Assembly: GCA_023954135.1 (NCBI GenBank)
Contig: JAMLIN010000014.1
Coordinates: 1 to 64,000, forward strand
DNA: 64,000 nucleotides
From: Burkholderiaceae bacterium
GTDB lineage: Bacteria > Pseudomonadota > Gammaproteobacteria > Burkholderiales > Burkholderiaceae_E
Direction of reading: 5' to 3'
Of this stretch, positions 2,121 through 25,361 are shown one piece after another (within the stretch, counting starts at the first letter, position 1; each line of letters begins with the position of its first letter). The notes under the pieces were generated by a model, which was not told where the DNA came from, did no database searches, and saw nothing but the letters and a program-made list of their open reading frames with translations. A program made the position numbers and the translations under genes.

Positions 2121-3142
2121 TCAGTTGTCACGCGGGCCACGGATGATCGTGAGGCTCGGGGGGCATGTGCCGTTCGCCATGCGCGGGAAGGGATCGGTGC
2201 GCTGTATGCCGCGCTCGGCGGCGCTGTCCCAGCCGGCATGGCCGCTCGACTTGCGCAGGGTCACCGAGGCGACGCTGCAGTCGTCGCGCAGGCGGACCGC
2301 GAACTCGGCCTTGGGATTGCCGGCGAGATCGGGCGGAATGAGGAAGTTCGTATTCGCGCGGATGGCGGAGCGAAGCTGAGCCTGGTAGCCCGCATCCATG
2401 CCGGTGCCGCCGGCATTGCCGCGCGCACCGCTGGCGCCGCCGCTGGGTGCGCCCTGGGTGGCGCCGGTCTCGCTGCCGCCGGCGGCCTGCTGCAGGCTCG
2501 CAAGGTATTCCGTGCGCCGACGCTCCTCCTCGGCGCGGCGCGCCTGCTCGGCGGCCTTGCGCTTCTGTTCCTCGGCGAGCTTCTGCTTTCGTGCCTCCTC
2601 GGCCTTGCGCTTTTCCTCCTCGGCGAGCTTCTGCTTGCGCGCTTCCTCGGCGCGGCGTTTCTCCTCGGCGAGCTGCCGCTGGCGTTCCTCCTCGGCGCGG
2701 CGCTTCTGTTCCTCGGCGAGCCGCTGCTTGCGCTCTTCCTCGGCCCGGCGCTTCTCTTCGGCGAGCTGTCGCTGACGCTCCTCCTCGGCCCTGCGCTTTC
2801 TCTCTTCCTCCTCACGCTTGGCCTTCTCGATCGCGATCTGCGGGTCCGGCGCGGGCTCGGATGGCGGCGGCGGTGGCGGTGGCGGCGCCGGCTGGGGCTC
2901 GGGGACCGGCTCCGGCCGGGGTTGCGGCTGGGGCGTCGGTTCCGGTTGCTCGATGGCGGGCGCCGGGGTCCAGAGCTCGGCGATGACCGGTGGCGGCTCG
3001 CTCGACTTCCACGATATCCCGACCACCAGCATCGCCGCCAGGGCGAGGTGGATCAGCAGCGCCAGGCCGAATGCCTTGATCCGGCCCGAGCGCGAGGGCC
3101 GGGGCCGGTTGGGGAAGCGCTCGGCGAGCGACGGCTTCCTGC

Positions 3143-3146
<4 letters not shown>
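2121..3146 (-). CDS. tolA: Cell envelope integrity protein TolA
   Basis: Inner-membrane protein that spans the periplasm and carries proton-motive-force-driven motion from TolQR to TolB-Pal. The 341 residues show an N-terminal cytoplasmic tail, one membrane helix (about 25-47), a proline-rich stretch (about 58-97) with runs of PPPPPP, and a long Ala/Glu/Lys/Arg coiled coil (about 105-215) built from repeats such as RRAEEERQRQLAEEK. A short TonB-like C-terminal domain carries two Cys (DDCSVAS and GTCPPS) that may form its usual disulfide. The start overlaps the tolR stop by four bases, which implies translational coupling. Confidence 0.96.
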
Positions 3147-3583
<437 letters not shown>

Positions 3584-3613
3584 GGTGACCTCCGGGTCGA
3601 TGCGGGCCGGGCG

Positions 3614-4285
3614 CTAGCGCGCCTGGCGCTGCAGGATGTTGGAGAACTCTTCCATGAAGCTGTCGAAGCGGCTCGACAGGCGGTCGATGTCGTGTGCATA
3701 GCGGTTGTAGGCGATCACCGCGGGAATCGCGGCGAACAGGCCGATCGCGGTGGCGACCAGGGCCTCGGCGATACCGGGTGCAACGGCTGCGAGGGTCGCC
3801 TGGTGGACATTGGCCAGCCCCCGGAACGCGTTCATGATCCCCCAGACCGTGCCGAACAGGCCGATGTAGGGGCTGACCGAGCCCGCCGTGGCGAGCAGGG
3901 GCAGGCCGGATTCGAGCATGTCCAGCTCGCGCTGGTAGGAGGCCCGCATCGCGCGGCGCGAGCCGTCGACGATGGACTGCGGATCGCCCGGCGTCTGCTG
4001 GCGCGCCTTCAGGAACTCGCTCATGCCGGCATCGAAGATCCGCGCCATCGAGCCGGGATCCTTGCGCGACTCGCGGATCTGCTGATAGAGCTGGCCGAGC
4101 TCGCGATCGCGCCAGAACTCGTCCTCGAAGCGGTTGGCGGCGCGGGCGGCCCCCTTGAGGGTGAAGAACTTGCGGAAGATGACGGTCCAGGAAGCGATCG
4201 AGATCAGCACCAGCAGCAGCATCACGGCCTGCACCAGCAGGCTCGCATCGATCACGAGCGAGATGATCGACAGGTCTTGGTTCAT
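3614..4285 (-). CDS. tolQ: Tol-Pal system proton channel subunit TolQ
   Basis: ExbB/MotA-family inner-membrane protein that forms the TolQR proton channel. It has 223 residues, close to the family norm of about 226. The first membrane helix lies near residues 10-32. The later pair of helices lies in the region containing VSPYIGLFGTVWGIMNAF and IGLFAAIPAVIAYNRYA, both hallmarks of the family. The ATG at 4285 overlaps the ybgC stop (ATGA), which fixes the start. The frame stays open upstream, but that translation has no family similarity. Confidence 0.97.
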   Translation of the reverse strand: MNQDLSIISLVIDASLLVQAVMLLLVLISIASWTVIFRKFFTLKGAARAANRFEDEFWRDRELGQLYQQIRESRKDPGSMARIFDAGMSEFLKARQQTPGDPQSIVDGSRRAMRASYQRELDMLESGLPLLATAGSVSPYIGLFGTVWGIMNAFRGLANVHQATLAAVAPGIAEALVATAIGLFAAIPAVIAYNRYAHDIDRLSSRFDSFMEEFSNILQRQAR

Positions 4286-4731
4286 CGGGCGGTCCCCGGT
4301 TGGATGGATTGGGTGAGCCAGTCGGGCAGGCCGACCGGGCGGCCGTCGCTGCGCCGGATCATGGCGATGCGGACTTCGGCGTCGGCGAGGACTTCGTCCT
4401 CGCCCTGGCGGCAGGCCCACTGGTGCAGTGTGGCCGAGGCGCGGCGTGCGCCGGTGACGGCCAGCCCGAGGTTCAGCACGTCGTCGAGCCGGGCCGGCCG
4501 GAGGTACTCGATGCGCATGCCGCGGACCACGAAGACCTCGTCGCGGGCCCGGGCGATCTCGAAATGCGAGGGGCCGCCGAGCGAGCGCAGCCATTCGGTA
4601 CGGGCCCGCTCGAAGAAGCGAAGATAGTTCGCGTAGTAGACGATGCCGCCTGCATCGGTGTCTTCATAGTAGACGCGGATCGGCCAGTCGAAGACCGATC
4701 GGGCGGCGGCGTTCGAGGCTTCGGATGGCAC
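4282..4731 (-). CDS. ybgC: Acyl-CoA thioesterase YbgC (tol-pal associated)
   Basis: Hotdog-fold thioesterase encoded at the head of tol-pal operons in many proteobacteria. The motif YYEDTDAGGIVYYANYLRFFERART contains the catalytic Asp of the 4-hydroxybenzoyl-CoA thioesterase family. No ATG is available near the homologous N-terminus. The GTG at 4731 gives 149 residues, near the usual 135-140, and a TTG at 4773 would add 14 residues. Neither has a strong ribosome site, so the start is uncertain. The stop overlaps the tolQ start. Confidence 0.93.
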   Translation of the reverse strand: MPSEASNAAARSVFDWPIRVYYEDTDAGGIVYYANYLRFFERARTEWLRSLGGPSHFEIARARDEVFVVRGMRIEYLRPARLDDVLNLGLAVTGARRASATLHQWACRQGEDEVLADAEVRIAMIRRSDGRPVGLPDWLTQSIQPGTAR

Positions 4732-4793
4732 GCCGTCGGGAGGAACGAATTCGTCGATCGGTGATTCTATCAATCGCGGGGTTCCGGGAGAAA

Positions 4794-5525
4794 TCAGTGC
4801 ACCATGCCCGCCGGCCGCGGGACCATCTGCCAGGCGAGGCCGGCGAGCAGGACCGCAGCGCTGACGGCGAAGAGGGCCCGCCTCGCCCCGTGGAGCCGGT
4901 ATTCCTCCCAGTCGAAGCGCTCGGACATCACGGTGGCGAGCGCGAAGCCGGCGACCAGCCCGCCGATATGGGCGGCATTGTCGATCATCGTGGCGGTAAA
5001 GCCCATGAAGAGCGAATAGCCGACGAAGATGACCAGCGAGGGCCGCATGGACGCGACCAGGCCCTTCGGCAGCTTGTGCGGCTTGGTGAACAGGGCGGCG
5101 AGCAGGGCCCCGGCGACACCGAAGATCGCACCGGAGGCGCCCACCGAGACGGCGATCCGCGCCGACGAGAACATGCTCGCCAGCGAGCCGAACAGGCCGG
5201 CGAACAGGTATATGATGGCGAACTGGCCGTTGCCGTAGAAGCGCTCGGCGATCCGGCCCATGTTGAGCATCGCCCACATGTTGAAGCCGAGGTGGATGAC
5301 GCCGGCGTGCAGCACGGTCGAGCTCATCAGCCGCCAGGGCTGCTCGAGGGTCGCCGGCAGGAAATTCCCGCCCAGCAGCAACAAGGCCTGCGGGCTCGGC
5401 GACATCCAGTCGACTCCCAGCAGCACCGTCACGATCCAGACGGCGACGTTGACCGCCACCACAGTGGTGGTCACGAAGGTTCGCGGGGTTGCCTCGTACA
5501 GGCGCTGGACGAAGTCCGGCATCAT
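4794..5525 (-). CDS. Rhomboid family intramembrane serine protease
   Basis: Predicted polytopic membrane protease of family S54, with 243 residues and about six or seven hydrophobic helices. The nucleophile motif GASGAIFG and the catalytic His motif NAAHIGG are both present, as is the [21 protein letters not shown] segment typical of the family. The start at 5525 overlaps the ruvB stop (ATGA). A second ATG follows at 5522. The substrate is unknown. Its place between ruvB and the tol genes is positional and does not by itself imply a DNA-repair role. Confidence 0.93.
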
Positions 5526-6580
5526 GAGGACGCGGCGGCGTCGCCATCGTCCCAGAGGCCGCCGGTCGGCGAGCTGCGGGGCGCCGCCAGGCCGAAGTGT
5601 CGCCATGCGGCCGGCAGGGCCACGCGCCCGCGCGGCGTGCGCTGCAGGAAGCCCTGCTGGATCAGGTAGGGCTCGATCACGTCCTCGATGGTCTCGCGCT
5701 CCTCGCTGATCGCGGCGGCGAGGTTGTCGAGCCCCACCGGCCCGCCGCCGAACTTCTCGAGGATCGCCGACAGCAGCGCCCGGTCCATCAGGTCGAGCCC
5801 CGCCGCATCCACGTCGAGCATCCGCAGGGCGGTATCGGCGACCGTGTCGTCGATGATGCCGCCGGTGCGCACCTGGGCGTAGTCGCGCACCCGGCGCAGG
5901 AGCCGGTTGGCGATCCGCGGGGTGCCGCGCGAGCGGCGCGCGATCTCGCGCGCGCCGGCCTCCGAGATGCCGGCCTCGAGCAGTCCCGCCGAGCGGGTCA
6001 CGATCCGGCCGAGGTCTTCCTCGCTGTAGAACTCGAGCCGCGCGACGATACCGAAGCGGTCGCGCAGCGGATTGGTCAGCATCCCGGCCCGGGTGGTCGC
6101 CCCGACCAGGGTGAACGGGGCGACATCGAGCTTGATCGAGCGGGCGGCGGGGCCTTCGCCGATCATGATGTCGATCTGGTAGTCCTCGAGCGCCGGGTAG
6201 AGGATCTCCTCGACGATCGGCGAGAGCCGGTGGATCTCGTCGATGAACAGCACGTCGTTGCGCTCGAGGTTGGTCAGCAGCGCCGCGAGGTCGCCGGGCT
6301 TCTCGAGCACCGGCCCCGAAGTCTGGCGCAGGTTGACCCCCATCTCGGCGGCGACGATATGGGCCAGCGTGGTCTTGCCGAGCCCGGGAGGGCCGAACAG
6401 GAGCAGGTGGTCGAGCGGCTCGCCGCGATGGCGCGCGGCCGCCATGAAGATGTCGAGCTGCTCGCGGATGCGAGGCTGGCCGATGTAGTCGGCCAGCGCC
6501 CGCGGCCGCAGCGCCCGCTCGACGACCTCCTCGTTGGGCGAGCCCGGCGCCGGCGTGATCAGGCGGTCGTGCTCGATCAT
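5522..6580 (-). CDS. ruvB: Holliday junction branch migration ATPase RuvB
   Basis: Hexameric AAA+ motor that drives branch migration with RuvA. The 352 residues carry Walker A (GPPGLGKTT), Walker B (FIDEIHRL), sensor 1 (GATTRAG), an arginine-finger region and the C-terminal winged-helix domain ([17 protein letters not shown]). The start overlaps the ruvA stop and the stop overlaps the rhomboid start, giving a tightly coupled ruvC-ruvA-ruvB-rhomboid series. Confidence 0.98.
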
Positions 6581-7155
6581 GCCTTCACCAGCGACTTGAG
6601 CGCCTGGCGGATGCCGTCGGAGACATCCACGCCGGGCGGGAGCTTGCGACCCGCAGCGTCGGCTTCGCGCTCGGAATAGCCGAGGGCGACCAGCGCGTGC
6701 ACCACATCGGCGAGCGCCGCGTCGGGCGGCGTGTGGCCCGCACCGTCCGCGGGCGGGGCGAAGCGGCCCTTGAGCTCGAGCAGCAGGCGCTCGGCGGTCT
6801 TCTTGCCGATGCCCGGGACCCGGGTCAGGCGGCTGGCATCCTGGGTGGCGACCGCCCGGCCGAGCTCGTCGACCGACATGCCCGAGAGCAGCGCGAGGGC
6901 GATCCGGGCGCCGACGCCGGAGATGCGGATCAGCTGGCGGAAGGCATCGCGTTCGGCCTCGGTGCCGAACCCGAAGAGCAGGTGGGCGTCCTCGCGCACG
7001 ACGAGATGGGTGAGCAGCGTGACCGGCGATCCGATCGCCGGCAACTCGAATACGGTGCTCATCGGCGCCTCGATCTCGTAGCCGACACCGCCGACATCCA
7101 CCAGCAGGGCGGGCGGCCGCTTGGCGAGCAGCTTGCCTGAGAGTCGTCCGATCAT
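6577..7155 (-). CDS. ruvA: Holliday junction DNA-binding protein RuvA
   Basis: Tetrameric subunit that binds four-way junctions and recruits RuvB. The 192 residues begin [10 protein letters not shown]. The OB-fold domain I is followed by two helix-hairpin-helix motifs ([15 protein letters not shown] and [17 protein letters not shown]) and a C-terminal domain III that contacts RuvB. The ATG at 7155 gives the canonical family N-terminus, although the frame remains open upstream. It sits 10 bases downstream of ruvC. Confidence 0.97.
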
Positions 7156-18776: not shown

Positions 18777-18799
18777 GAACCTGTGAACGGGCCATCCAG

Positions 18800-19630
18800 A
18801 TGAGACGGTCCAGCCCCTCCCGACCGGCGCCGGCGCGGCGGACCCGGGGCGGCGTTCTGGCGCGGCGCCGCTTCGGCCAGCATTTCCTGGTCGACAAGGG
18901 CGTCATCCATGCCATCGTCGAGGCGATCGGGCCGCGATCGGACGACGCGATCGTCGAGATCGGCCCCGGGCCGGGCGCGCTGACCGACGCCCTGCTCGCG
19001 CGCATAGGCCATATCGACGCGATCGAGATCGACCGCGATCTCGCCGCCGCATTGACGGCGCGCCATGGCGCCGACCGGCTATCCCTGCACCAGGCCGACG
19101 TCCTCGGCTTCGACTGGCGCGGCTTCGCCGGCGATCGCCGCCTGCGGATCGTCGGTAACCTGCCCTACAACATCTCCACGCCCCTGCTGCTCGGCCTGGC
19201 GGACGTGGCGGATATCGTCGTCGACCAGCACTTCATGCTGCAGAAGGAAGTCGTTGCGCGCATCGTCGCCGGCCCCGGCGGCGCCGACTACGGGCGCCTT
19301 GGCATCCTCCTGCAGGCCCGCTACGAATGCGACTGGCTCTTCGACGTGCCGCCGGAGTCATTCGACCCGCCGCCGCGGGTGGACTCCGCGGTGCTGCGGA
19401 TGACACCGCGCCCGGCCCGGGTGCGCAGCATGAGCGCGCTGTCCGAACTGCTGGCGGTCGCTTTCGGCCAGCGCCGCAAGATGCTGCGCGGCCACTTGCT
19501 GCCCTGGCTGCGCGAGCGCGGCATCGAGGATGAAACGCTCGAGCCGACCCGCCGCGCCGAGGAGATCGACCAGGAGACCTGGTACCGGGTGGCGGACCGG
19601 CTTGCGGAGTCGCGGCTGGGAGTGGTCTGA
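18800..19630 (+). CDS. rsmA: 16S rRNA dimethyladenosine transferase RsmA (KsgA)
   Basis: Dimethylates two adjacent adenines in the 3' helix of 16S rRNA. The 276 residues begin with a basic stretch and FGQHFLVD. SAM motif I (VEIGPGPGALTDALL) and the catalytic NLPYNISTPLL motif follow, then the C-terminal domain with FDPPPRVDSAVLRM and FGQRRKMLRG. The start at 18800 is the ATG giving a normal length; an in-frame ATG at 18725 lies inside surA. It is the last gene of the lptD-surA-rsmA run and borders the accessory island. Confidence 0.97.
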   Translation: MRRSSPSRPAPARRTRGGVLARRRFGQHFLVDKGVIHAIVEAIGPRSDDAIVEIGPGPGALTDALLARIGHIDAIEIDRDLAAALTARHGADRLSLHQADVLGFDWRGFAGDRRLRIVGNLPYNISTPLLLGLADVADIVVDQHFMLQKEVVARIVAGPGGADYGRLGILLQARYECDWLFDVPPESFDPPPRVDSAVLRMTPRPARVRSMSALSELLAVAFGQRRKMLRGHLLPWLRERGIEDETLEPTRRAEEIDQETWYRVADRLAESRLGVV

Positions 19631-19662
19631 GGGTGGGTTCCCGGCTGATTCGGTTCGATGGA

Positions 19663-19678
19663 ATTACCGATGGGTAAT
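19663..19678. promoter_or_regulatory. HipB-type operator O1
   Basis: Perfect palindrome ATTACC-GATG-GGTAAT, extending one further base pair on each side (AATTACC/GGTAATT). It is one of two near-identical sites upstream of the hipB-like gene, offset by 49 bases start to start, so both would face similar helix sides over about five turns. Autoregulation by HipB binding is known for the family; that these are the sites is inference. Confidence 0.7.
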
Positions 19679-19711
19679 TTCTCCTTGATTTTCGGGAAGC
19701 GAGGGATGAGT

Positions 19712-19727
19712 ATTACCGATAGGTAAC
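19712..19727. promoter_or_regulatory. HipB-type operator O2 overlapping the promoter
   Basis: ATTACC-GATA-GGTAAC, matching O1 in arms and spacer length with one arm mismatch at the last base. It ends 13 bases before the hipB ATG, directly upstream of the ribosome site GGAG (19731-19734). It overlaps a possible -10 (TATTAC, 19711-19716) that follows a possible -35 (TTGATT, 19685-19690) at a long 20-base spacing. Binding here would block transcription. Confidence 0.7.
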
Positions 19728-19740
19728 TTCGGAGCGCTTC

Positions 19741-20016
19741 ATGCCCCAGACACCCCGGCAGCTGTCGAATGGTCATCGGCCTGACCAGGACCGGATCGTC
19801 CGCTCGGCGGCGGAACTCGGTGCCATCGTGCGCGAGCGGCGCAAGCGTCTGGCCCTGACGCAGCTCGACATCGCCGGCCTCGGCAACACGGGTAATCGCT
19901 TCATCGTCGAGCTCGAAAACGGCAAGCCGACCGTCCAGCTGCAGAAGGTCCTGGATATCCTGGATCTGCTCGGGCTGGAGATCGTGGTGCAGCCCAGGGC
20001 GGCTCGGCTGTCGTGA
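19741..20016 (+). CDS. hipB: HipB-like antitoxin, XRE-family regulator
   Basis: Small DNA-binding antitoxin of 91 residues expected to neutralise and co-repress with HipA. The helix-turn-helix is seen in LGAIVRERRKRLALTQLDIAGLG and FIVELENGKPTVQLQKVL, followed by a strand (LGLEIVVQP) typical of HipB dimers. The ATG has GGAG six bases upstream. The stop overlaps the hipA GTG start (GTGA), giving coupled translation in the usual antitoxin-first order. Confidence 0.88.
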   Translation: MPQTPRQLSNGHRPDQDRIVRSAAELGAIVRERRKRLALTQLDIAGLGNTGNRFIVELENGKPTVQLQKVLDILDLLGLEIVVQPRAARLS

Positions 20017-21281
20017 CGAAGCGCCCGGACCGTCTGGACGTCTACTACGGTAGCGAGCTCGTCGGCGCGATTCACGATACCTCGCCTCTTGCGTTCGAGT
20101 ATTCGCCGGACTGGCTGAAGCGTCCCGGAAGGATGACGCTCGCCACGATCGATCTGCAGCCGGGTCGCAACGATTCGGACTCCGTACAGGCCTTCTTCGA
20201 GAACCTCCTGCCCGAGGGCGAGCTACGCCGATACCTGGTACGGGAACGCAAGGCATCGACCCTGTTCTCGCTGCTACTGGAAGTGGCGGGCGATATCGCG
20301 GGTGGGTACATCATCGTTCCGGGTGGCGAAAGTCCGGAGCCCGCTTCCTATGAGCCCACGAGCTGGATGGCGATTGCCGCCAGCCTTGGCGGGAGGTCGG
20401 CCTCGGCCATCGACGTCCGGGCCGCCGATGCGCGGATCTCGCTCGCCGGAGCCCAGGACAAGACCGGCATCGCCATCCTCGATGACGGAGTGCCGCGACT
20501 GCCCCGAGGCACCTCGCCATCGACACATATTCTCAAGCCCGACATCAGGCGCCTCGCGAAGGTCTGGCACTCCGCCGCCAACGAGACCATCGTGATGCGG
20601 GCAGCCGCGCACTGCGGGTTGCCGACGGCCGAAGTCTTCTACGAGCCACATGCGCGGTCCTGCGTGGTGCGGCGTTTCGATCGGGTCGTGCAACCCGACG
20701 GAACGCTGGCGAGACTGATCCAGTACGACCTCTGCCAGCTTGCCGGCACGGTCTCGGAGCGGAAATACGAGAAGGAGGGCGGGCCGGGTATCGCGACCTG
20801 CGCCGATCTGATCCGCCGCTACAGTGCGCAACCAGCGGTAGACCTGCGTCACTTCGTCAGGTGGGTATTCTTCAACCTCCATGTCGGCAACGATGACGGC
20901 CACGCCAAGAACCTGGCCATCCATCACCGGCCCGGCAAAGGTGTGACGCTGGCGCCTTTCTACGACCTGATGTGCACCCGTATCTACCCGGGGCTATCAC
21001 GCGAGTTCGCGTTTGCCGTGGGCGGTGAATACCGGCCCGCGTTGCTGACGAAGGCGCATCTGGAGGGCATGGCGCAGGAACTGGGCATGCGACCGCAATT
21101 CATCGCGCAACAGGCGATCGATGTGGCGCGGAAGATACCGGGCGCTTTCGACGAGGCAGTGAAGGACATCGAACCCGTGCTGCCTCGGTCCGCAAGGGTT
21201 CTTGCGGAGCGCCTGCAGCGGTTCGTGCTTTCATCGACGAGGAAGATGGTTGCCCGGATGGAGATCTCGAAGGTTCCGTGA
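20013..21281 (+). CDS. hipA: HipA-family Ser/Thr kinase toxin
   Basis: Toxin kinase of a type II toxin-antitoxin pair. In E. coli the homologue inactivates GltX; the target here is unknown. The 422 residues contain a HipA N-terminal subdomain and the kinase C-terminal domain. The autophosphorylation loop is conserved (RISLAGAQDK, Ser about 143, aligned with E. coli Ser150). So are the catalytic Asp in NDDGHAKN (about 295) and the Mg-binding Asp in FYDLM (about 318). It therefore looks intact. Translation starts at GTG, overlapping hipB. Confidence 0.92.
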   Translation: MTKRPDRLDVYYGSELVGAIHDTSPLAFEYSPDWLKRPGRMTLATIDLQPGRNDSDSVQAFFENLLPEGELRRYLVRERKASTLFSLLLEVAGDIAGGYIIVPGGESPEPASYEPTSWMAIAASLGGRSASAIDVRAADARISLAGAQDKTGIAILDDGVPRLPRGTSPSTHILKPDIRRLAKVWHSAANETIVMRAAAHCGLPTAEVFYEPHARSCVVRRFDRVVQPDGTLARLIQYDLCQLAGTVSERKYEKEGGPGIATCADLIRRYSAQPAVDLRHFVRWVFFNLHVGNDDGHAKNLAIHHRPGKGVTLAPFYDLMCTRIYPGLSREFAFAVGGEYRPALLTKAHLEGMAQELGMRPQFIAQQAIDVARKIPGAFDEAVKDIEPVLPRSARVLAERLQRFVLSSTRKMVARMEISKVP

Positions 21282-21332
21282 GGTGGGAATGACCGAAGCT
21301 TCTGGATCAGAACGGGCTCAGAACGGGCGAAA

Positions 21333-21788
21333 TCATTCCCATGCGGAGCTTGCCGCGCCGTGGCGCGGGCGCGACGTATCGATGACCACCCGCTCCGGGA
21401 GCTCGGCGACGAGGAACAGCCGGTACCGCTCGATGCGCCCGTCGACGAGATCGAAGAAGCTGAACACGGAACCGCGGATCGGCCCCCCGGTGGGCGGCCG
21501 GCCGAGCCAGGGGCCGGTGTGCAGCCCGGTGAACGACCACCACGCCATGACCGTGTCGTCGCCGGCGACGATGCGCTGCACATCGACCCGCAGTTCCGTG
21601 ACGTGGCGGCGGAAACCCTTGACGTGGGCGACCAGGCCGGCGCGACCCGGCGGGCCGCCGAACGCCTCGTTGGCCTCGTCGACCATGTCGGCGTTCGATA
21701 TCTGCTCGATCAGCTCCAGCCGTCCCTGAGCGACCACCTGCTCGAGATAGGTCCGCATCAGGGTTTCAGGATCGTGATCGGGTTTCAT
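21333..21788 (-). CDS. SnoaL-like/ester cyclase-type protein
   Basis: A 151-residue protein with NTF2-like features: an N-terminal helix (MRTYLEQVVAQGRLELIEQI), then FGGPPGRAGLVAHVKGFRRHV and MAWWSFTGLHTGPWLGRPPTGGPI, a stretch characteristic of SnoaL-family polyketide cyclase-like proteins. The biochemical role is unknown. Its ATG overlaps the stop of the upstream MFS gene (ATGA), so the two form an operon. It converges with hipA across 51 bases that contain a tandem 11-base repeat (21307-21328). Confidence 0.75.
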   Translation of the reverse strand: MKPDHDPETLMRTYLEQVVAQGRLELIEQISNADMVDEANEAFGGPPGRAGLVAHVKGFRRHVTELRVDVQRIVAGDDTVMAWWSFTGLHTGPWLGRPPTGGPIRGSVFSFFDLVDGRIERYRLFLVAELPERVVIDTSRPRHGAASSAWE

Positions 21789-23008
21789 GCGCGCGGCCTT
21801 CCATACAGGATCACCACCGTCGCCATCACCTCGATCGCGGCGGCGGCCAGGAAGGGCAGCCGGTAGCTTCCCGAGAGGTCGTGCAGCCAGCCGTACAGGC
21901 TGGGCCCCAGGCAGGAGAGCAGGCCGATGATCATCGCGCCCACGCCGTAGATAGCGCCGAAGGAGGCGGAGCCGAACTCGCGGCGCACGATGATCGGCGA
22001 GAGGGTCGTCACGTTGCCGATGGTGATGCCGTAGCCGAGGCTCGCCAGCACCAGCGCGGTCGGCGAGGCGGCGAACGCCAGCAGGGTGAGGAATACCGTC
22101 CCGAGGCCGAACATCGCGGCCGCCGCGAGGCGGACGTCGATGGCGTCCGAGAATCGCGCCAGCAGGAGGCGGCCGATGAAGGCGGCGATCGCGGTGGCGG
22201 AGACCAGCCCGGCGGCGCCCGTCGCGCCGAGCGTCGGCGCGGCTACCGCGACGTGATGGGTCAGGAAGCCCAGCTGCACCATCAGCGCCAGGCCGAAGGC
22301 GGCGATCGAGGTCCGGAACTGCAGGGTCGCGACCGCGCTTGCCCGGTTCCACCGGCGCGGCTCCGCGGCTGCCGGCGCCTTCGGGTCCGGCTTCATGCCG
22401 TCGGGCAGCAGGCCGAGATCCTGCGGCCGGTGGCGCAGCACCCGCCAGGCGAGCGGCAGCACCAGGGCGATCACGGCCGCGCCCGCCAGCAGGGTCGCCC
22501 GCGGAAAGCCGAGCAGCTCGATGCTCGTCGCCAGCAGCGGGAGGCCCAGCATGCCGCCGAAGCTCGCGCCCAGCAGCGCGATCGTCACCGCCCTGCCCTG
22601 GTGGCGCTCGAACCAGGGCGCGAGGGTGGTCGTGAGCGCCGTGGTGCCGAGGCTGGCATAGCCGACGCCCGCCAGCGCGAAGATCGCGTAGACATGCCAG
22701 GGCTCGGTGACCCGGCCGAGCAGCGCGACACTCGTGCCCATCGCCAGGGCGCCGATGGTGAAGACGCCGCGCGGCCCCTTGCGGCCGATGAGGCTGCCGA
22801 CCGGCATCGACAGGCAGGCACCGGTCAGGTAGAACACCGTGATCGCCGAGGACACCACGCCGATCGACCAGCCGTGAAGCCGGGTGATCGCGTACAGGTA
22901 GACGCTGACCCCGAACACGCCGAGCGTCCAGCTCAGCGTCGCGATCAGCAGGCAGGCCGCGACCATCCACCAGCCGTAGAAGATCCGCCCGCGCCCTGTC
23001 TCGATCAA
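21785..23008 (-). CDS. MFS transporter (OFA/monocarboxylate-like)
   Basis: Inner-membrane transporter of 407 residues with about twelve hydrophobic helices and the loop motif GSLIGRKGPRGVF between helices 2 and 3. The N-terminus (GRIFYGWWMVAACLLIATLSW) and the central ALTTTLAPWFERHQGRAVTIALLG stretch resemble oxalate/formate and monocarboxylate transporters. The substrate cannot be read from sequence. It is coupled to the SnoaL-like gene and divergent from the AbiE pair across a 204-base gap. Confidence 0.85.
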   Translation of the reverse strand: MIETGRGRIFYGWWMVAACLLIATLSWTLGVFGVSVYLYAITRLHGWSIGVVSSAITVFYLTGACLSMPVGSLIGRKGPRGVFTIGALAMGTSVALLGRVTEPWHVYAIFALAGVGYASLGTTALTTTLAPWFERHQGRAVTIALLGASFGGMLGLPLLATSIELLGFPRATLLAGAAVIALVLPLAWRVLRHRPQDLGLLPDGMKPDPKAPAAAEPRRWNRASAVATLQFRTSIAAFGLALMVQLGFLTHHVAVAAPTLGATGAAGLVSATAIAAFIGRLLLARFSDAIDVRLAAAAMFGLGTVFLTLLAFAASPTALVLASLGYGITIGNVTTLSPIIVRREFGSASFGAIYGVGAMIIGLLSCLGPSLYGWLHDLSGSYRLPFLAAAAIEVMATVVILYGRPRA

Positions 23009-23156
23009 GTTGTTCTCGTTCGGTCGTGCCGCGCCACCCCATCGGGAATCGACCGGGTTTCCGCGGCTCGATCGGCGACGTTGGCAGGATGCCTATCCTG
23101 CCATATCGTCAGAATTCGTGATGGAGCGGGATCAGGCAGGCGGTGTCCTGAGGGAT

Positions 23157-23211
23157 CCCAAATCATACGCAATACTATACAAAAAATGTCAACTTTCGCG
23201 TATGATTCGGG
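23157..23211. promoter_or_regulatory. Inverted-repeat operator of the AbiE operon
   Basis: Arms CCCAAATCATACGC (23157-23170) and GCGTATGATTCGGG (23198-23211) pair at 13 of 14 positions across a 27-base AT-rich spacer that holds a possible -10 (TACTAT, 23173-23178). The right arm ends one base before the abiEi ATG at 23213. AbiEi antitoxins are known to repress their own operon by binding inverted repeats; assignment of this repeat as that site is inference. Confidence 0.7.
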
Positions 23212-23212
23212 A

Positions 23213-24028
23213 ATGCCCTCCATTGAACCCTATTTCGAGGGGCATCTTGCCCAAGGTCGGGCCTACTTCACGCGGGAGGAGGCCCAGGCTGCGCTCGGCC
23301 TGTCGCCGCACGCATTGAGCGTCGCGCTGATGCGGCAGGTCAAGAAGAAGCGCCTTGCCCATCCCCGGCGCGGCTTCTACCTGATCCTGCGCCCGGAGGA
23401 CCGGGCGTTCGGTGCGCCCGACCCGGTGCGCTGGATCGATCCGCTGATGAAGTACCTGCGGTTGGACTACCGCGTGGCTTTGCTGCGCGCCGCGGCGTTC
23501 CATGGAGCGTCGCATCAGGCGGCGATGGTGTTCCAGGTCATCGTGCCCCGGCAGATGCGTGGCTTCGAGGTCGACCGGCAACGGCTGGAGTTCGTCTATC
23601 AAGGCCCTGAGGCATTCGCCCAGGTCAACCGGGCCGACTGGCTGGGGTCGCTCAAGAGCGAGGCCGGCTTTGCCAAGGTCGCCGGCCTGGAATTGACGCT
23701 GCTGGACTGCGCCCGCTACTTCCACAAGGCTGCGGGCATCAATGGCCTGGCGCAGATTGCCAAAGACCTCGGCGGGCAGGCCAGGCCCGTCGAGCTGGCG
23801 CGGATCGCGGCGCACTACGAAAACTCCTCGGTGCGCCGGCTGGGCTATCTGCTGGAATGGGCCGGTCATGCGCCGCAGGCCGAGGCACTACGGCCGTTCG
23901 CTCGCAAGGCCAAGACGGCCGCGCTGCTGGACCCGTCCGTAAAGTCCTTGGAGGGTCTGTCTGGCCTCCACGAAAAAGCCCCTGGCTGGCGACTTGTCCT
24001 CAATGAGCCGGTGGAGGTCGATGCTTGA
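23213..24028 (+). CDS. abiEi: AbiEi-family antitoxin/transcriptional regulator
   Basis: Antitoxin of a type IV toxin-antitoxin and phage-abortive-infection system, 271 residues. The N-terminal region (YFTREEAQAALGLSPHALSVAL, then KRLAHPRRGFYLIL) reads as the winged-helix domain. The C-terminal part (GLELTLLDCARYFHKAAGINGLAQIAKDLGG and RRLGYLLEWAG) matches the AbiEi antitoxin domain. No clear ribosome site precedes the ATG at 23213. An in-frame ATG at 23186 inside the operator would add nine residues. The stop overlaps the next gene. Confidence 0.85.
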   Translation: MPSIEPYFEGHLAQGRAYFTREEAQAALGLSPHALSVALMRQVKKKRLAHPRRGFYLILRPEDRAFGAPDPVRWIDPLMKYLRLDYRVALLRAAAFHGASHQAAMVFQVIVPRQMRGFEVDRQRLEFVYQGPEAFAQVNRADWLGSLKSEAGFAKVAGLELTLLDCARYFHKAAGINGLAQIAKDLGGQARPVELARIAAHYENSSVRRLGYLLEWAGHAPQAEALRPFARKAKTAALLDPSVKSLEGLSGLHEKAPGWRLVLNEPVEVDA

Positions 24029-24900
24029 TTCCGCAAGCCTATCTTCAAGCCTGGAGTGCAAACGCGCCCTGGCCCGATTTTCGCCAGATCGAGCAGGATC
24101 TGGTCATCTGCCGCGCACTGTGCGATCTGTTCAATGCGCCGGCGTTGCTCGGCAAGATTGCGTTCCGTGGCGGTACGGCTATCAACAAACTGCTGTTCAC
24201 GCAACCGCTGCGCTACTCCGAAGACATCGACCTCGTGCAGATGCGGCCGGAGCCGATCGGCCCCACCGTCGATGCGATCCGTGAAGCGCTGGCATGGCTC
24301 GGTCCGTGCAACCGTGAGCAGGCGGGACACTCGATGCACCTGCTGTTCCGTTTCGCGCCCGAAGCCGACCCGCAATCGATGCTCAAGCTGAAGATCGAGA
24401 TCAATACGCGGGAGCACGAGTCTCTGTTCGGTGTGCGTTCCTATCCATTCGCGGTGGAGAATGGCTGGTATGAGGGTCAGGCCGAGATCGCATCCTTCAC
24501 GGCCGAGGAACTGTTCGGCACCAAGCTGCGCGCGCTGCTGCAGCGGCGCAAGAACCGCGACCTGTTCGACCTGGCCCAGGGCCTGGAGCAGTTGGCGTTC
24601 GACATGGACAAGCTGGTGGCCAGCTTCGACCACTACCTCGCCCTCGAGGGAAAGGCCATCACACGCGCGATGGCCGAGCAGCGCATGCTGGAAAAGCTCA
24701 CGCGCAACTTGACGGAAGACATTGCACCTCTATTGTCGGCGGGCATTCGTTTCGACGAGGCCGATGCACTGCGGGCTTTCGAGCGCGTCTGGAACGAGCT
24801 GGTGGCACGGCTCAAGGGTGACCCGTGGAAGTCCACGGACAAGGTGGTCGCTGAACTGCGAGAGAAGGGCTATCCGGCGCTGCTACGGCCAATGGGGTGA
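24025..24900 (+). CDS. abiEii: AbiEii-family nucleotidyltransferase toxin
   Basis: Toxin of the AbiE pair, 291 residues, with a DNA-polymerase-beta-like nucleotidyltransferase fold. Motif I is FRGGTAINKLL and the paired acidic residues lie in RYSEDIDLVQ. A later acidic strand is KLKIEIN, and RRKNRDLFDL matches the conserved motif IV region. The start is a TTG overlapping the antitoxin stop (TTGA), so toxin translation probably depends on antitoxin translation. All core motifs are intact. Homologues modify tRNA 3' ends; that activity is not provable here. Confidence 0.87.
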   Translation: MIPQAYLQAWSANAPWPDFRQIEQDLVICRALCDLFNAPALLGKIAFRGGTAINKLLFTQPLRYSEDIDLVQMRPEPIGPTVDAIREALAWLGPCNREQAGHSMHLLFRFAPEADPQSMLKLKIEINTREHESLFGVRSYPFAVENGWYEGQAEIASFTAEELFGTKLRALLQRRKNRDLFDLAQGLEQLAFDMDKLVASFDHYLALEGKAITRAMAEQRMLEKLTRNLTEDIAPLLSAGIRFDEADALRAFERVWNELVARLKGDPWKSTDKVVAELREKGYPALLRPMG

Positions 24901-24968
24901 TGATGGATGGACGAGTTCTGGGCTGCGAAGCGGATCGGCATTTGGACGTCTGAATGGCGGCCGCCGTC

Positions 24969-25361
24969 TCAAGTTGTTGATCCTGTTTGTATCAGCTCGA
25001 TCTTGTACCCGTCCGGGTCCTCGATAAACGCGATCACGGTGGCGCCGCCCTTGACCGGGCCGGCTTCCCGGGTGATGCGCCCGCCGGCGGCGCGGATGCG
25101 CTCGCACGTGGCGGCGACGTCGGCCACGCCGATCGCGATGTGGCCATAGGCGGTGCCGAGCTCGTAGCTGTCGACGCCGTGGTTGTAGGTGAGCTCGAGC
25201 ACCGCGGTGTCACGTTCGCTGCCGTAGCCGACGAAAGCAAGCGAGTAGCCCTGCTCGGGGCGCTCGGTGCTGCGCAGCAGCTTCATGCCGAGGATGCGGG
25301 TGTAGAAGTCGAGCGAGCGTTCCATGTCGCCGACGCGCAGCATCGTGTGCAGGATTCTCAT
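24969..25361 (-). CDS. gloA: Lactoylglutathione lyase GloA (glyoxalase I)
   Basis: Detoxifies methylglyoxal by isomerising its glutathione hemithioacetal. The 130 residues are a VOC-fold protein starting [21 protein letters not shown]. The metal ligands fall at His5, Glu56, His74 and Glu122, the same positions as in the E. coli enzyme. It marks the return of the housekeeping gene order after the island. Confidence 0.96.

Follow-up and report, generated by a model that had tools for sequence, protein, structure and literature searches.

Two toxin-antitoxin modules and a transporter operon in the rsmA-gloA gap of a Burkholderiaceae genome

Gene content and composition of the rsmA-gloA interval

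The subject of this work is a six-gene stretch (positions 19631-24968) located between the housekeeping genes rsmA and gloA in 64,000 nucleotides of DNA from a Burkholderiaceae bacterium. This DNA, referred to at its full length as the window, is contig C23 of the genome G000 (4.36 Mb, 116 contigs), which was the sole representative of its genus among the genomes compared. The stretch contains a HipBA toxin-antitoxin (TA) module and an AbiE TA cassette, both on the + strand, and between them, on the - strand, a gene pair encoding a SnoaL-like protein and an MFS transporter. An initial annotation had already placed HipBA, MFS/SnoaL and AbiE between rsmA and gloA; its coordinates were exact, and family models confirmed all genes.

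The hipB gene (19741-20016, + strand) encodes a helix-turn-helix (HTH) antitoxin of the couple_hipB/Y4mF type (TIGR03070 couple_hipB, E = 1.1e-21; PF01381) and overlaps by 4 bp with hipA (20013-21281, + strand), the gene of a Ser/Thr kinase toxin (PF07804, 5.4e-47; PF13657, 1.4e-13). On the opposite strand snoaL (21333-21788, 151 amino acids; PF07366, 5.4e-22) shares 4 bp with the MFS gene (21785-23008), which has a TTG start and whose product resembles oxalate-formate/L-lactate antiporters (PF07690, 6e-25; NF049980, 9.7e-38, under the cut-off of that model). The abiEi gene (23213-24028, + strand) encodes the antitoxin/repressor (PADLOC AbiEi, 1.9e-84; PF09407, 3.4e-19; PF13338, 7.9e-6; these searches were run with the translation of 23186-24028, i.e. 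from the upstream ATG at 23186), and its end overlaps by 4 bp with abiEii (24025-24900, + strand), the gene of a nucleotidyltransferase toxin (PADLOC, 7.4e-99; PF08843, 8.3e-27). The stretch is flanked on the left by rsmA/ksgA (18791-19630, + strand; PF00398, 2.7e-51; TIGR00755, 1.6e-70) and on the right by the glyoxalase I gene gloA (24969-25361, - strand; TIGR00068, 4.5e-50).

No integrase was found among the family-assigned genes of the stretch, and the sole tRNA gene of the window is 14.6 kb away. The stretch is not flanked by a gapless terminal direct repeat of at least 12 nt, and repeat pairs other than the AbiE operator looked chance-like. Scanning the stretch for promoters and terminators yielded little, the single 'terminator' call (19660-19681) coinciding with the first of two predicted HipB operators (see below).

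The GC content of the TA genes had been described as visibly lower than that of their neighbours. When the genes were compared with 184 heuristically called G000 genes (139 from 20 fetched stretches and 45 from the window, including some spurious open reading frames, ORFs), this reduction proved real but mild: abiEii (GC 0.619) was at the 2nd, hipA (0.642) at the 12th, and hipB (0.663) and abiEi (0.665) at the 22nd percentile. The composition of the other pair was native, with snoaL (0.686) at the 44th and the MFS gene (0.718) at the 84th percentile. Codon scores of the TA genes fell at percentiles 25.5 (hipA), 26.6 (abiEii), 33 (abiEi) and 65 (hipB), thus these genes are not strongly foreign.

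The AbiE cassette, the HipBA module and the MFS/SnoaL pair

The AbiE operon is bicistronic with the antitoxin gene in first position, and its products have the features of type IV AbiE systems: AbiEi combines a winged HTH with a C-terminal AbiEi domain, and AbiEii is a DUF1814 nucleotidyltransferase with motifs I-IV. Gene order and the match to the AbiEi model are shared with the Streptococcus agalactiae AbiEi/AbiEii system (PMC3985639). Residues G49, G50, R63, D67 and D69 of the published toxin occupy identical positions in AbiEii, and motifs III and IV are represented by K167, R174 and D179, corresponding to K173, R180 and D192 in the published protein. All these residues of the window protein, as well as D182, were invariant in 14 sequences. 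The AlphaFold model of AbiEii (pLDDT, the predicted local distance difference test score, 89.5) matched JHP933 and the Mycobacterium tuberculosis toxins MenT4 (6y56, Foldseek E = 2.8e-7) and MenT3 (6y5u, 1.3e-6), with sequence identities to the MenT proteins of 15-16% and TM-scores of 0.44-0.61. Sequence searches of the PDB with AbiEii and AbiEi gave no real match. AbiEii is a predicted MenT-like nucleotidyltransferase toxin, whose action may lead to growth arrest, classically upon phage infection.

Immediately upstream of abiEi lies a putative promoter-operator (23156-23212) consisting of two 26-bp inverted arms (23156-23181 and 23187-23212), which are separated by 5 bp and are 77% complementary in the window. 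It includes a -10-like hexamer, TATGAT, at 23201-23206. Of 75 AbiE loci, three that were duplicates and 24 of greater divergence were set aside; the window and 47 closer loci made up the sample. A palindrome with fixed centre (at least 10 of 14 positions) was present in 41 of these 48 sequences and in 2.1% of shuffles; in the 24 more distant loci it was mostly absent. A start codon 5-7 nt downstream of a -10-like hexamer was present in 42 of the 48, and 25 of the 42 also had a -35-like hexamer (at least 4 of 6 positions). A Shine-Dalgarno-like motif was found in none of the 48. Judged by conservation among the relatives, the most likely start of AbiEi is at 23213 and not at the upstream ATG (23186). 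Since the right operator arm extends up to this start codon and a Shine-Dalgarno-like sequence is missing, the message is predicted to be leaderless, starting at 23213. AbiEi would repress its own promoter through the wide inverted repeat.

The promoter of the S. agalactiae operon is likewise spanned by a wide inverted repeat, with 11-bp arms separated by N27 and extendable to 23 bp with N3 (PMC3985639); two such operator sets are described for Rv2827c (PMC7319586). In the present cassettes the corresponding geometry is that of 14-bp arms with a spacer of 27 bp in the related locus L026 and of 29 bp in the best register of the window, where the full 26-bp arms are 5 bp apart. The operator letters differ (CCCAAATCATACGC in the window, TGTTGCTTTTA in the published operator), and, unlike the predicted message of the window cassette, the S. 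agalactiae message has a ribosome-binding site (PMC3985639). An apparently leaderless promoter-operator that is conserved across dozens of genomes offers a precise and testable regulatory site.

AbiEii relatives were detected at 106 loci of the genome collection, of which 80 (42-87% identity) were used; those with 66-87% identity came from metagenome-assembled genomes whose labels range over many proteobacteria and include some other phyla. Similarity to the window started at 23155-23157 in 22 of the 44 loci with DNA to the left (at least 1 kb aligned) and never earlier, and in the 42 loci with DNA to the right it never extended beyond 24910. These sharp edges delimit an AbiE cassette of approximately 1.75 kb (about 23156-24903). 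None of 83 AbiE loci (80 distinct) carried hipBA, MFS, SnoaL, rsmA or gloA in its flanks, which were at most 6 kb and often shorter, the gloA gene of G010 (see below) falling just outside. As regards a possible plasmid or phage vehicle, AbiEii matched 50 plasmid records at 1e-40, the best (67.5%) on an Agrobacterium plasmid. Single-protein queries, sensitive to close relatives only, found no AbiEii relative in viral_contigs; matches of 38% and 42% identity occurred in two unannotated 'Bacteriophage sp.' records. In one relative (L050, approximately 2451-6891) some 2.6 kb with ORFs that resemble IS21 genes, as judged by eye, interrupt abiEi, the ends of the pieces sharing a 188-bp repeat at 95%; abiEii stays open.

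HipA of the window could be aligned to E. coli HipA (3.7e-37) and retains the ISxAGAQxKT, DGHAKN and FYD motifs; the kinase motifs present in the alignment comprise the loop of the autophosphorylated Ser, the catalytic Asp/Asn and the Mg-binding Asp. Two predicted 16-bp HipB operators, ATTACCGATGGGTAAT (19663-19678) and ATTACCGATAGGTAAC (19712-19727), precede hipB at a distance of 49 bp from each other. With up to two mismatches the pattern ATTACCGATRGGTAAY occurs only at these two sites in the 64 kb, the chance expectation being 0.01. The module shares with the type II HipBA system of E. coli (PMC8262856) the upstream position of hipB with a gene overlap, the N-terminal lid and kinase domains of HipA with their motifs, and palindromic promoter sites; it differs by the distant sequence of HipA and by the letters of its predicted operators. 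HipB would bind the two operators, repress the operon and neutralise the kinase, and HipA, when freed, might phosphorylate its target (a tRNA synthetase, if it behaves like E. coli HipA) and thereby stop growth. Both TA modules of the stretch are intact and ordinary.

HipA had matches at E = 1e-60 in five of 250 genomes of the order, G000 included. It had no match among plasmid records at the same threshold, and no relative in viral_contigs with single-protein queries, which detect close relatives only. The best relative (70%) is in G028, where yicC-like and gmk-like genes flank hipBA, a PIN-like ORF is its neighbour (L120, 3898-11989, by eye), and weaker operator-like repeats lie upstream of hipB. 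Upstream of another hipBA relative (L110, 3025-3189) there are four HipB-type operator-like copies with 49-50 bp spacing.

For the MFS transporter, relatives with 46-52% identity were found in 12 of the 73 other family genomes (E = 1e-85). In five genomes with an MFS relative (G022, G207, G063, G055 and G064) no SnoaL was present in the available flank. The role of the MFS/SnoaL operon is probably metabolic; a role in defence is unsupported.

The rsmA-gloA junction in related genomes

The initial annotation had described rsmA and gloA as close neighbours in many betaproteobacteria, and two surveys, of the family and of the order, bore this out. In the family, the two genes were searched in 74 genomes including G000 (partial rsmA matches being used for G007, G015, G029, G042, G051 and G064) and were on the same contig in 56; the other 18, with the genes on different contigs or one of them without a close match, were left out of the gap count. 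In 39 of 51 convergent pairs no more than 240 bp lie between the genes, a few of which overlap, so the empty junction is the usual state. In the remaining 12 pairs, G000 among them, 0.6-13.5 kb separate rsmA from gloA. One further genome has the two genes convergent at a distance of 1.1 Mb, and in four they are co-directional neighbours. The adjacent co-directional arrangement in G012, G022, G028 and G029 suggests a local inversion in some lineages.

In the order, 130 genomes (gloA at 1e-40) minus four family members were surveyed, and 66 had both genes on one contig. Convergent genes were separated by 125 bp or less in 27 genomes, by 0.5-25 kb in 21 and by a greater distance in 5; in 13 the genes were not convergent. 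G128 (44 kb) exceeded the 25-kb limit for inserts, and G088 (22 kb), counted as an insert, may be a rearrangement. Outside the family, rsmA and gloA thus converge at a distance of no more than 25 kb in 48 of the 66 pairs, and 21 of the 48 have inserts: the convergent arrangement is common across the order and is frequently interrupted. The interval provides a convenient marker for charting accessory and defence genes in the order.

The genes of the stretch were looked for by tblastn (1e-5) in 20 fetched rsmA-gloA loci of relatives (L006-L025; 17 convergent, three co-directional), and none was found. On this ground they are accessory, as the initial annotation had proposed.

What the other intervals carry was determined in part with hidden Markov models (HMMs; 10 + 10 proteins against Pfam, 7 + 10 against PADLOC), the rest being judged by eye. 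The models identified an FMN-binding protein and a PIN domain (G052), BrnT and Fic proteins (G173), a HAD hydrolase (G026), DUF4160/DUF2442 (G133), AAA_14/DUF4143 (G086; PADLOC PDC-S01, 2.6e-94) and a protein kinase (G130; PADLOC PD-T4-6, 1.3e-97, perhaps via the generic kinase domain alone). By eye, G004 carries genes for a dioxygenase and a reductase, the 13.5-kb interval of G060 has cobalamin/BtuB genes, and G011 a short-chain dehydrogenase/reductase (SDR) gene; G059, G060 and G064 encode small membrane proteins, that of G059 having no Pfam match. Among the 33 intervals of 0.5-25 kb, six (G000, G052, G173, G130, G133 and G086) contained TA- or defence-like genes within the limits of this partial scan, and G010 can be added to them. 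The cargo is mixed, and much of what lies in the other intervals is of metabolic appearance or without an assigned function.

As a control for the frequency of insertion, genes were called heuristically in 0.37-0.40 Mb around rsmA from each of four genomes that belong to one genus of the family. Ordered genome comparisons of conserved convergent pairs, close together in one genome, were scored for an insert of 0.5-25 kb in the other; in six convergent comparisons the genes no longer stood in this relation or were more distant from each other. Inserts were found in 5 of 41 convergent, 16 of 210 co-directional and 10 of 39 divergent pairs. Compared with these 5 of 41, the 12 of 51 at rsmA-gloA did not represent a significant excess (Fisher p = 0.19). 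The junction itself is absent from the five control inserts, the script not having captured it; in the four genomes it would count as 3 of 9, all due to G060. Since the control is small and its counts, being ordered pairs from four genomes of one genus, are non-independent, a special status of rsmA-gloA is unproven. A literature search at the level of listings returned no description of an rsmA-gloA hotspot.

A second AbiE cassette near gloA was found in another genus of the family. In G010 it lies on the same side of gloA as in G000, at a distance of about 6.3 kb and with unchanged orientation, and matches window positions 23157-24903 at 87.9%; similarity on the gloA side is about 70%. Between the cassette and gloA (L116, 3618-8694) lie genes for a deaminase (PADLOC dCTPase, 7.7e-150), then a TIR protein and then a short Argonaute (8.4e-109 and 7.5e-194; models Aga_TIR-PNTD1-PNTD2 and pAgo_I), all with a GC content (about 0.53-0.60) much below that of the flanks. 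The deaminase is AvcD-like, the TIR protein is of the APAZ kind, and TIR protein and Argonaute make up a SPARTA-like pair. Identity at four-fold degenerate sites between G000 and G010 was 76% for abiEi and 69% for abiEii, compared with 61% for lptD, 58% for surA, 56% for gloA and 49% for rsmA, which argues that the cassettes separated later than the genomes. The rsmA gene of G010 is on a different contig from gloA. A TonB receptor gene seems to run off both contig ends with matching orientations, so a single rsmA-gloA interval of at least 20 kb is possible. Copies of a TTTCGGCGTAATCCGGCC-like repeat occur at both contig ends (L116, 19700-19901; L117, 11350-11598), within or beside the TonB receptor gene; they may represent a mobile element at which the assembly was interrupted. 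About 1 kb past the cassette, an 80-bp second copy of a part of abiEi (L116, 11970-12049) is 82.5% identical to window positions 23621-23699. Elsewhere in the family AbiEii was found in four genomes, away from gloA or partial: full length in G007 and G067, and as fragments in G062 and G072.

Origin of the inserted genes

We consider it probable that the stretch is a mosaic of units acquired separately in a permissive convergent gap between housekeeping genes, where an insertion would break no gene, operon or promoter. HipBA, MFS/SnoaL and AbiE would be the three units. So understood, the locus is a clean example of TA modules present as minimal units in a harmless convergent gap with no visible integrase. 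Several observations weigh against this interpretation. The composition of the stretch is only mildly atypical, and G000, alone in its genus, has no close relative by which the insertions could be dated and put in order. The four-fold identity of hipA to its G028 relative (0.44) is below that of rsmA (0.59) and gloA (0.69), hence hipBA could be old rather than recently transferred. In G028, moreover, an MFS gene whose product is 45% identical to that of the window is located 4.1 kb downstream of hipBA in the same relative orientation, which may reflect an old hipBA-MFS link and would speak against fully separate units, although, MFS relatives being common, it may be due to chance.

The initial annotation had interpreted the site as a hotspot for the integration of defence or stress genes. 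On this view the junction would be a genuine site of docking for defence genes throughout the family and order, with AbiE and other systems landing there more often than at other sites. We regard this as rather unlikely. With known defence islands and integration hotspots (PMC10121019), rsmA-gloA shares variable cargo, partly of defence type, between the same conserved flanks, and the AbiE cassette beside gloA in G010, with its AvcD-like and SPARTA-like neighbours, is the single result that keeps the hotspot reading alive; post hoc arithmetic gives a chance of about 1% for one of three full-length AbiE relatives to lie within 10 kb of gloA. The inserts in 21 of the 48 order pairs and the PIN, BrnT/Fic, DUF4160/DUF2442, AAA_14/DUF4143 and kinase genes in other intervals point in the same direction. 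A tentative, rather unlikely version of this scenario is that the junction is a recurrent defence docking site in the order, where a 1.75-kb leaderless, palindrome-controlled AbiE subfamily, moving as a minimal unit, reached a position next to gloA on at least two occasions, in G000 and in G010; identity of the two insertion points cannot be demonstrated, because the cassette edges share no flanking DNA. What does not fit a docking site is the insertion frequency, not significantly above the convergent control (divergent pairs gave 10 of 39), the metabolic-looking or unassigned nature of much of the cargo, and the position of AbiE in G007 and G067, where it is on contigs other than that of gloA and where rsmA and gloA have nothing but 19 and 110 bp between them. 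Neither an integrase, nor a nearby tRNA gene, nor a flanking direct repeat was found. Of the hotspot claim, the variable cargo and the presence of defence genes in a second genus are supported, and the special nature of the site is not.

Two other histories fit the data less well than the mosaic. Arrival of all six genes jointly on one mobile element, implied by the word 'island', is very unlikely: the genes are contiguous, the TA genes have a mildly low GC in common, and G028 has hipBA and an MFS relative close together, but the three pairs differ in composition and distribution. GC at third codon positions is 0.95 in the MFS gene, 0.79 in hipA and 0.78 in abiEii; the AbiE loci of other genomes lack the remaining genes in their available flanks; and there is no integrase-like gene among the assigned genes of the stretch. 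In G028 itself, four gene calls, some housekeeping-like by eye, separate hipBA from the MFS gene, no SnoaL match was found in 12 kb around hipBA, and the genome has no AbiEii match. The island label is too strong for this locus. Hardly more probable is vertical inheritance of old genes in the G000 lineage with loss in others. A composition near that of the genome, a divergence of hipA from G028 as deep as that of housekeeping genes, and the spread of MFS relatives through the family are compatible with it; the small gap in most convergent family pairs and the MFS relatives of five genomes without SnoaL in the available flank argue for the contrary, as does the AbiE cassette, which is nearer to that of G010 than the housekeeping genes of the two genomes are to each other.

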